Source: Saprospiraceae bacterium | GTDB lineage: Bacteria; Bacteroidota; Bacteroidia; Chitinophagales; Saprospiraceae | Assembly (NCBI GenBank): GCA_020629965.1 | Contig: JAHDCG010000017.1 | Coordinates: 1-64,000 of the forward strand | Reading direction: 5' to 3' | DNA length: 64,000 nucleotides | Shown: positions 57,007 to 63,091 of the stretch, in pieces | Layout of the letters: each line of letters begins with the position of its first letter | Position numbering within the stretch: the stretch's first letter is position 1 | Program-made: the position numbers and the translations under genes | Notes under the pieces: generated by a model | What the model was told of the DNA's origin: nothing | The model's database searches: none | Seen by the model: the letters and a program-made list of their open reading frames with translations, nothing else

Positions 57007-57041
57007 TTTGAAAATCACAGGCACTGTCTGTGATTTTCAAA
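57007..57041. repeat. palindromic repeat family 4, copy 2
   Basis: TTTGAAAATCACAG and its complement, 14 bp each, around GCACTGT. It separates the ATPase/DUF4276 pair from the DUF433 cassette and could also terminate the operon. Confidence 0.75.
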
Positions 57042-57094
57042 ATGACCTTGTGTACGCGCCGAATTTTTTTATATTTTTTAAGAAAATCAAACCA

Positions 57095-57313
57095 ATGTTC
57101 ATCTACAAAAACATCATCACAATCGAACCGGGCAAACGCTCCGGCAAGCCCTGCATTCGCAATATGCGCATCACGACGGATGATATTTTGCGGATGTTGG
57201 CTGCGGAGATGTCGGAGGAGGAGGTTTTGATTGCGGTGGAGTTTTCGGGAAATGATGCTTTTACAACTTTCCGATGTTATCCGGATTTTTCGTATTTTTG
57301 GAAAAAAAAATAA
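57095..57313 (+). pseudogene. DUF433 copy 1, internally deleted
   Basis: Identical over the first 40 residues to copy 2 (start MFIYKNIITIEPGKRSGKPC). It then lacks about 12 codons found in copy 2 (LEDFPELGREDV) and resumes at AVEFSG. Its altered end runs into the promoter of the next gene (SYFWKKK). DUF433 proteins are small winged-helix antitoxins normally paired with a PIN-like toxin; this copy is probably non-functional. Confidence 0.65.
57293..57300 (+). promoter_or_regulatory. -7 element TATTTTTG
   Basis: A TAnnTTTG match inside the tail of the deleted DUF433 copy, 18 bp before the next start codon. The leader would be about 14 nt. Confidence 0.45.
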
Positions 57314-57607: not shown

Positions 57608-57817
57608 ATGTTCATCTACAAAAACATCATCACAATCGAGCCGGGCAAACGCTCCGGCAAGCCCTGCATTCGCAATATGCGCATCACGACGGACGATATT
57701 TTGCGGATGTTGGCGGCAGATATGTCGGTGGAGGAGATTTTGGAGGATTTTCCGGAGTTGGGGCGGGAGGATGTTTTGACGGCGGTGGAGTTTTCGGGAT
57801 TAGAAGGGGAAGTCTGA
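57608..57817 (+). CDS. DUF433 protein, intact copy
   Basis: 69 residues, nearly complete DUF433: IITIEPGKRSGKPCIRNMRI, TTDDILRMLAADMSVEEILE, DFPELGREDVLTAVEFSG. It is probably an antitoxin-type DNA-binding protein, but no DUF5615 PIN-like toxin is beside it. The stop codon TGA is the first three bases of palindromic repeat copy 3. The DNA over the first 120 bp is about 95% identical to copy 1. Confidence 0.8.
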   Translation: MFIYKNIITIEPGKRSGKPCIRNMRITTDDILRMLAADMSVEEILEDFPELGREDVLTAVEFSGLEGEV

Positions 57818-61838: not shown

Positions 61839-61960
61839 TCGGGTTGGGGTAGGAATTGTTTTATTGGGGTGTTTTTTTATGTTTGTGGTTTTTAACGTGA
61901 TTGATTTCGTTAATCAGTATGTTTTTTAGGAGTTTATATATTTTTATTTCTGTTATGGAA

Positions 61961-61985
61961 TTTGGTGTGACACTGTCACACCAAA
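61961..61985. repeat. DUF1016-linked palindrome, copy 1 (promoter region)
   Basis: TTTGGTGTGACA and its complement around a single C. It ends 23 bp before the -7 element of the DUF1016 gene and so overlaps the -33 region. Confidence 0.8.
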
Positions 61986-62008
61986 TGGAAAGTTTATAAA
62001 AATCGGTT

Positions 62009-62016
62009 TATCTTTG
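62009..62016 (+). promoter_or_regulatory. -7 element TATCTTTG of the DUF1016 gene
   Basis: An exact TAnnTTTG match, 26 bp before the start codon, downstream of the first palindrome. Confidence 0.6.
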
Positions 62017-62042
62017 ACCAAAATCTAACAATCAGTTTTATC

Positions 62043-63056
62043 ATGAAAAACCTACCGGAAATTAAAGATTATGATATTTTGATAAAAAATATCACGGAAA
62101 CTTATCAGTCCGAAAGGAGTAAAGCTATACAAGCAATCAAATCGGGGTTAGTCAATGCGCATTGGCAAACCGGAAAGTACATTGTAGAATTTGAACAGGG
62201 AGGAAACGAGAAATCAGAGTTTGGTTCTTTGCTTTTAGATAAGCTGTCGGAAGACTTAAAAGCTAAACACGGCGCGGGTTTCAGCAAGAGTAATTTGGTC
62301 TATATGCGCTTGTTTTATCTAAAATACCCAATTGGTGTGACACTGTCACACCAATTGAGCTGGTCTCATTACTATGAGCTACTGAAGATTTCTGATGACT
62401 TAGAACGCGGATTTTATGAGAAGCAAAGTATTTTGGAAGGCTGGAGTATCAGAGAATTAAGAAGACAGAAAAAAGCATCACTATATTTGCGTGTTGCTGC
62501 TTCGACGGATAAAAAAAGAATAGTAAAATTAGCCAAGGAAGGCAGAAGAGTTGAAAAGCCTATCGATATTATTCGTGACCCTTACATTTTTGATTTTTTA
62601 AAAATTCCCGCAGCTTATCAGCTGACTGAAGCTGAATTAGAAAAAAGAATAATTCAACATCTTCAAAATTTTCTTTTAGAATTAGGAAAGGGTTTTGCTT
62701 TCATCGGCAGTCAATACCGTATTACTCTCGGCAATCGTCATCACTTCGTAGATTTGGTTTTTTACCACCGTATTTTAAAATGCTTTGTGTTGATTGATTT
62801 GAAAAGAGAAGAAGCCGGTTATCAAGACATCGGACAAATGAATATGTATCTCGGTTATTTTGAAAGCGAGGAAAATACGGTGGGCGATAACCCGCCGATT
62901 GGCATCGTACTCGCAAGAGAAAAAGATGAATTATTGATAAAGTACGCGATGCACGGAATTTCGACGCAGTTATTTATTTCAAAGTATAAACTGCACTTGC
63001 CGGATGAGGAAGAATTGCGGAGGGAGCTTGAGTTGATTGTGGGAGAAGAGGAGTAA
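62043..63056 (+). CDS. DUF1016 (YhcG-type) PD-(D/E)XK nuclease
   Basis: 337 residues. The N-terminal DUF1016 domain is about 15-165, with LSWSHYYELLKI near 105-116 and SIRELRRQ near 135-142. The C-terminal PD-(D/E)XK nuclease is about 175-325, with active-site Asp237 (FVDLVFYHR) and Asp252-Lys254 (VLIDLKREE), then MYLGYFES. Members are predicted DNA nucleases of mobile or defence elements. A palindrome is embedded in residues 96-105 and repeated at both ends of the gene. The coding sequence is AT-rich relative to the core genes. Confidence 0.9.
   Translation: MKNLPEIKDYDILIKNITETYQSERSKAIQAIKSGLVNAHWQTGKYIVEFEQGGNEKSEFGSLLLDKLSEDLKAKHGAGFSKSNLVYMRLFYLKYPIGVTLSHQLSWSHYYELLKISDDLERGFYEKQSILEGWSIRELRRQKKASLYLRVAASTDKKRIVKLAKEGRRVEKPIDIIRDPYIFDFLKIPAAYQLTEAELEKRIIQHLQNFLLELGKGFAFIGSQYRITLGNRHHFVDLVFYHRILKCFVLIDLKREEAGYQDIGQMNMYLGYFESEENTVGDNPPIGIVLAREKDELLIKYAMHGISTQLFISKYKLHLPDEEELRRELELIVGEEE
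62329..62357. repeat. DUF1016-linked palindrome, copy 2 (inside the gene)
   Basis: CAATTGGTGTGACA and its complement, 14 bp each, around one C. In frame it encodes IGVTLSHQL within a conserved part of the protein, and the family spacing to LSWSHY appears unchanged. Confidence 0.8.
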
Positions 63057-63091
63057 TTTGAATTGGTGTGACACCGTCACACCAATTCAAA
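63057..63091. repeat. DUF1016-linked palindrome, copy 3 (after the stop codon)
   Basis: TTTGAATTGGTGTGAC and its complement, 16 bp each, around ACC. It begins at the base after the stop codon and ends 8 bp before the convergent gene's stop, so it may double as a bidirectional terminator. Confidence 0.8.

Follow-up and report, generated by a model that had tools for sequence, protein, structure and literature searches.

Within the 64-kb stretch of DNA analysed here (the window) lies a DUF1016 (YhcG-type) gene accompanied by three copies of one palindrome, which stand before, inside and directly after the coding sequence. The features of the locus are as follows.

61960-61986, no strand assigned: upstream palindrome, exact, with 13-bp arms and a 1-nt centre that lies ~70 nt 5' of the start codon
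62009..62016, plus strand: -7-like element TATCTTTG, a consensus match only
62043..63056, plus strand: DUF1016 (YhcG-type) gene, 337 aa (ORF; Pfam; PADLOC)
62091..62492, plus strand: DUF1016_N domain (Pfam residues 17-150), with a predicted ParB/Noc-like DNA-binding fold (Pfam; AlphaFold2)
62329-62357, no strand assigned: internal palindrome, in frame, exact, with 14-bp arms and a 1-nt centre, coding for IGVTLSHQL
62565..63029, plus strand: YhcG_C PD-(D/E)XK nuclease domain, residues 175-329 (Pfam; fold match), with D237, D252 and K254 intact
63057-63091, no strand assigned: downstream palindrome, exact, with 16-bp arms and a 3-nt centre, abutting the stop codon (63054-63056)

The encoded protein matches DUF1016_N (E 3.9e-39) and YhcG_C (E 1.2e-57) far above the Pfam cut-offs, as well as the PADLOC profile PDC-S02 (E 4.6e-125), and is a member of the family known variously as YhcG, COG4804 and PDC-S02; a search of NCBIfam gave no match. 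An earlier note, made from the letters alone, had described a single palindrome before, within and after this gene, had not noticed it elsewhere in the window and had remarked that the internal copy does not seem to lengthen the protein. All three observations are borne out. The copies span 27-35 bp, and their arms, of 13, 14 and 16 bp, pair perfectly. When up to three mismatches are allowed, GTGTGACANTGTCACAC occurs in the 64 kb at the three palindrome places only, against a chance expectation of 0.16, and a chance origin of the sites was rejected; in the 6.5-Mb genome the palindrome 23-mer, at the same tolerance, is likewise confined to these three places, while the short inner core GTGACNNNGTCAC recurs at four additional places, approximately the chance level. 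The internal copy, centred on 62343 and thus 18 nt 5' of the W107 codon (62361-62363), falls in a loop of DUF1016_N that varies in length within the family, and the window protein displays the short form of this loop. The upstream copy stops 22 nt 5' of the -7-like element, the consensus for the Bacteroidota promoter -7 element being TAnnTTTG. Terminator function was considered for the window palindromes and rejected. Elsewhere in the window a pair of tandem ORFs (57008-57313 and 57608-57817) encodes near-identical peptides (MFIYKNIITIEPGKRSGKPCIRNMRITTDDILRMLAA...) and looks like a duplicated gene, putatively of a DUF433/antitoxin-like family.

The source genome holds six DUF1016 genes, some of which, besides the window gene, carry distinct palindromes of their own in corresponding positions. 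At one of these loci (L005) the palindrome TCCGAGACACTGTCTCGGA is found 5' and 3' of the gene, and at another (L008) the palindrome GAATTTGTGCCACG..CGTGGCACAAATTC lies within and 3' of it. Paralogues in the same genome never have a half-site in common, and their half-sites diverge more than those of distance-matched pairs drawn from different genomes (2.27 versus 3.03 of 8 bases, P ~0.003). Escherichia coli K-12 yhcG, which encodes a longer protein than the window gene, contains three in-frame internal palindromes, all in the variable loop, and one further copy after the stop codon.

The generality of this arrangement was assessed in 204 non-redundant full-length DUF1016 genes from bacteria and archaea, which were drawn from Bacteroidota, sampled classes of a Pseudomonas and a Faecalicatena genome, viral contigs and a species-genome survey that included archaea. 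A palindrome in the loop-coding segment, upstream of the conserved LSWSHY motif, was present in 166 of these genes (81%), and in 117 (57%) its centre lies exactly 18 nt 5' of the conserved Trp codon. A single codon phase is common to 195 of 201 sites, including 78 of the 84 sites at other distances. In the remainder of the same genes, by comparison, only 42 of 164,963 positions (0.025%) pass the palindrome test. An odd-centred internal site is lacking in 38 of the 204 genes; two further genes carry even-centred palindromes, which a scan for odd centres misses. The half-sites themselves vary greatly, with 63 distinct sequences among the 80 sites in which at least 10 of 11 positions are paired, and the symmetry is nevertheless kept: across all 204 genes Watson-Crick pairing at -18 is 0.660, compared with 0.388 (sd 0.008) when partners are shuffled, and it falls to 0.20-0.30 when the partner is slid along. 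Among 78 disjoint close pairs of genes, arm changes were two-sided in 162 cases and one-sided in 92. Decayed or split DUF1016 genes are numerous, and several partial matches stop near the palindrome-coded loop, a pattern that is as expected from rapid gain and loss of the gene or from long loop insertions.

Copies outside the gene are far scarcer than the internal one. Upstream copies accompany 6 of 158 site-bearing genes and downstream copies 5 of 151 (~4% per side), five of the six upstream copies being no more than 100 nt from the start codon. The internal copy is therefore the rule (81%), and the bracketing flanking copies are the rare part of the window pattern. When 123 flanking palindromes were scored, the majority did not fit the residue-base code of their owner (see below), which indicates that many of them are unrelated. 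The two loci L005 and L018, in which the gene has no internal site, have flanking palindromes that fit the residues of their own proteins. Palindromes of another kind, whose arms include GTAGAGACGC and GTAGAGACTC, flank a further two, unrelated, Bacteroidota loci (L089 and L062) and are probably dispersed repeats.

To ask which residues might read the palindrome, columns of the protein alignment were compared with half-site bases, residues 93-104, which are largely encoded by the palindrome, being excluded. Seven positions outside the palindrome-coded stretch predict half-site bases (83, 86, 87, 108, 111, 136 and 137), and they group in the window gene as follows.

62289..62303, plus strand: codons 83, 86 and 87, in the first part of a predicted recognition helix (residues 82-94), covarying with half-site bases 7, 8 and 5
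62364..62375, plus strand: codons 108 and 111, in predicted helix 107-113, covarying with bases 3 and 4
62448..62453, plus strand: codons 136 and 137, at the start of predicted helix 136-144, covarying with bases 3 and 2

The strongest pairings are of position 83 with base 7 (z 14.1), 108 with base 3 (13.4), 111 with base 4 (12.0), 136 with base 3 (10.9) and 86 with base 8 (9.6), and base 5 is likewise strongly paired with position 87, as is base 2 with position 137. The rules are clear-cut: Arg83 accompanies G7 in 55 of 56 cases and Lys83 C7 in 15 of 16; Glu86 is found with C8 (17/17), Trp86 with T8 (13/13), Asn87 with A5 (35/36), Arg111 with C4 (36/39) and Arg137 with C2 (127/127). In a control for relatedness based on 83 disjoint nearest pairs, 108-3 (p 1.3e-7) and 83-7 (p 1.6e-7) headed 2990 tests; 111-4 (p 0.03) and 87-5 (p 0.05) were weak. 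With whole clusters held out at the finest clustering, single residues predicted the base in 63-86% of cases against baselines of 36-84%, with little gain for 137-2, and 86-8 failed at the coarsest clustering. We infer from these correlations, which are among related sequences, that the covarying residues may contact double-stranded DNA.

An AlphaFold2 model of the N-terminal domain alone (pLDDT 89) places these residues at or near the starts of helices 82-94, 107-113 and 136-144. In structural comparisons the top 12 rows were all ParB, Noc or Spo0J proteins, several of them DNA-bound (Z 7.5-9.3), and the next row had a Z of 4.9; SopB and P1 ParB appeared as weak rows (Z 4-5), which carry no weight for or against the match. 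The likeness to ParB/Noc is a predicted fold match over residues 35-152, at a sequence identity of ~8-16% and with weak Foldseek E-values (best 0.12), and a sequence search of solved structures found no credible match. Pfam lists only DUF1016_N, YhcG_C and NucS_C, with no ParB N-terminal CTPase domain. In ParB and Noc the outer base of the site is read by the recognition helix and the inner base by helix alpha6, with alpha8 also making contacts (PMC7383237). The covariation, which was obtained with no structural input, has the same order, in that bases 5, 7 and 8 go with helix 82-94 and bases 2-4 with the two later helices; since this is the geometry of the published contacts, it is counted in favour of the protein binding its own site. 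The nuclease domain has a fold match to NucS/EndoMS (Z 11), and its PD-(D/E)XK site is intact in palindrome-bearing relatives, D237 and K254 being retained in 166/166 and D/E252 also in 166/166.

Sites away from DUF1016 genes are scarce. The earlier note had reasoned that a palindrome frequent throughout the genome would speak against a link with the nuclease, and the searches of this and related genomes point the other way: three of three copies are at the window gene, and in 118 Bacteroidota genomes the pattern AATTN5GACNNNGTCN5AATT, one common site shape, occurs ten times. All six matches with complementary variable arms lie in DUF1016 genes, and none of the four that lack complementary arms coincides with a DUF1016 match. 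On plasmids, matches to the E. coli palindrome are nearly all in DUF1016 genes, and those that appear unannotated are mostly unannotated DUF1016 genes. A lone DUF1016-type palindrome, TTAAATTGGTCAGACAGTGTCTGACTAATTTAA, was found on Cetobacterium somerae plasmid p5 (NZ_CP143324.1; L306, 2500-2532), where it adjoins relB with no DUF1016 gene within 2.5 kb; it is either a target or a decayed locus. In a phage collection, for which the Pseudomonas-type palindrome was the sole query, nothing matched over the full length.

Taken together, the anatomy of the genes and the covariation make it very probable that the DUF1016/YhcG protein binds the palindrome, as a dimer, and across bacteria and archaea each DUF1016 gene seems to contain the site at which its own protein binds. 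The suggestion in the earlier note that the palindrome is the protein's binding site thus finds strong support in the residue-base covariation, in the ParB/Noc-like predicted fold and in the lack of such sites elsewhere. It could be argued that homologues with sites of unrelated sequence, which the same note had regarded as contrary evidence, undermine this view. Such homologues do occur; it should be stressed, however, that they support binding and do not refute it, since their sites covary with the residues proposed to read them.

Two explanations of the palindrome that involve no binding by the protein can be weighed against this evidence. The perfect stems lie within the transcript and could form an RNA hairpin that acts as a signal for mRNA processing or translation. 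Arm mismatches, however, comprise 16 of the G-T and 29 of the A-C type, and as a G-U bias is lacking the pairing looks like DNA symmetry rather than an RNA stem. The upstream copy in the window, moreover, precedes the likely promoter element, no T tract follows the downstream copy, Rfam gave no match and the covarying residues read as contacts to double-stranded DNA, all of which renders the hairpin highly improbable. A dispersed palindromic repeat, of the REP or Rickettsia palindromic element type, that inserted by accident would account for the in-frame palindromic segments that lengthen the loop in some genes. We consider this just as improbable, as the copies are not scattered through genomes, their position and codon phase are fixed and they covary with the host protein.

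The natural variation of E. coli bears on what the protein may do at its site. In most genomes of this species yhcG sits between gltD and nanQ, which are adjacent in 944 of 5426. The two gltD-nanQ junctions lacking yhcG that were read out each hold one palindrome; in K-12 a segment comprising gltF, yhcADEF and yhcG is flanked by palindromes at both ends, and strains C8 and O157 have yhcG with no left palindrome. Using a residue-base code trained without E. coli, the K-12-type protein (Lys83, Arg86) gave its best score, 10.2, with both the first internal site (in its C8/O157 form) and the lone palindrome. The E686 allele (Arg83, Trp86) scored best on its own first internal and after-stop sites (10.9) and only 1.0 on the lone site. 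Internal site 1 of K-12 carries a change in the left half-site, which scores 7.3 against 10.2 for the right. In strains H19, PKF8 and B (L069, L072 and L073) yhcG is broken near internal palindromes: one lesion is an 80-bp deletion that starts just past the first copy, another is an IS1 boundary within the third copy, and the last lies at that third copy, a pattern suggestive of fragile sites.

These junctions invite the explanation that the gene spreads by homing or as a cassette, the nuclease cutting the palindrome of gene-free alleles, into which the gene is then copied during repair, so that flanking palindromes mark the ends of the segment. The single palindrome at both junctions without yhcG, which the code predicts to be cognate to the K-12-type enzyme, the K-12 segment lying between two copies, and the patchy, often decayed distribution of the gene are consistent with such mobility. 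A homing gene, however, normally destroys its own target, and here an intact cognate site sits inside the DUF1016 genes; C8 and O157 carry yhcG with no left palindrome, and dispersed empty targets were not found in the 118 genomes. Insertion and deletion histories of the E. coli segment are indistinguishable, and a deletion may have left the lone site behind as a scar. We regard homing as unlikely. At the window locus no empty site was found, the upstream neighbour being retained in one relative only; the downstream neighbour of the nearest relative has no adjacent palindrome, and a protein search of viral contigs for close relatives found none. Alternatively, the nuclease could exclude its own kind, cutting arriving or arising copies at the embedded site, which would serve as an address. 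That DUF1016 genes contain the only cognate sites found, that paralogues share no half-site and that every palindrome-bearing gene retains the active site accord with this proposal. The resident copy would also be cut unless protected, however, and among the neighbours there was no conserved modification partner, type I restriction-modification genes being weakly recurrent (~5 of 108); the avoidance of shared sites, furthermore, also fits the simple insulation of regulators. Self-exclusion is distinctly improbable. A broader proposal, that the nuclease targets only genes of its own kind and that the palindrome is a cleavage address by which copies of the same specificity are excluded, converted or spread, is possible but rather unlikely; were it true, specificity would evolve through a compact residue-to-base code.

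The reading that we prefer, with a probability of about one half, is that the internal site is chiefly an operator within the gene for negative autoregulation. DUF1016/YhcG would be a dimeric sequence-specific DNA-binding protein, in which a ParB/Noc-like reading domain is fused to a PD-(D/E)XK nuclease, and most members of the family would have their recognition site embedded at a set location within the coding sequence of the gene itself. Protein bound at the internal site, and at promoter copies where these are present, would shut down transcription of its own gene, and as the operator travels in the gene a mobile and potentially harmful nuclease would be kept at a low level behind any promoter beside which it comes to lie. 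Such autoregulation would explain the location of the site in coding sequence, its movement with the gene, the avoidance of shared sites by paralogues, the extra copies near promoters and the absence of other genomic sites. Autoregulation was among the uses proposed in the earlier note, alongside self-mobilisation and selfish spread, and is plausible. The window has a copy near its putative promoter, but upstream copies are present at only ~4% of genes. Repression would consequently depend largely on an internal roadblock, a mechanism for which the open-access literature searched yielded no precedent. The 38 genes that lack an odd-centred internal site, and the many flanking palindromes that do not fit the code of their owner, also count against the model. 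The operator model does not explain the copies after the stop codon, the tandem internal copies in E. coli, the invariably retained active site or the target of the nuclease.

Earlier work on the family covers nuclease prediction, mobile-element context, prophage context and antisense RNA, in the parts of the literature seen. A 2005 study recognised the C-terminal PD-(D/E)XK domain of YhcG/COG4804 and reported that no structure could be matched with confidence to the N-terminal domain (PMC1189080). Within the open-access portion of the literature, as distinct from subscription papers and preprints, we found no account of a self-site or a reading code in DUF1016/YhcG. In this family a DNA-level signal is retained in protein-coding sequence at one codon, in bacteria and archaea, despite changes in its sequence, and this points to a way in which a mobile nuclease gene might carry its own control. 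The long-uncharacterised yhcG of E. coli K-12 gains a testable predicted binding site and residue-to-base code.

The homing endonuclease I-TevI represses its own gene through an operator related to its target (PMC2988022), and is thus a precedent for a self-repressing nuclease; it differs in being a GIY-YIG enzyme encoded in a phage intron, with an operator at the promoter and not within the coding sequence. With ParB and Noc, DUF1016_N shares a predicted fold, a palindrome that would be read by a dimer and the order in which outer and inner bases are associated with successive helices. Unlike those proteins, however, DUF1016 has neither a CTPase domain nor a Pfam ParB match, it is fused to a nuclease and its site lies in its own gene rather than at a centromere.
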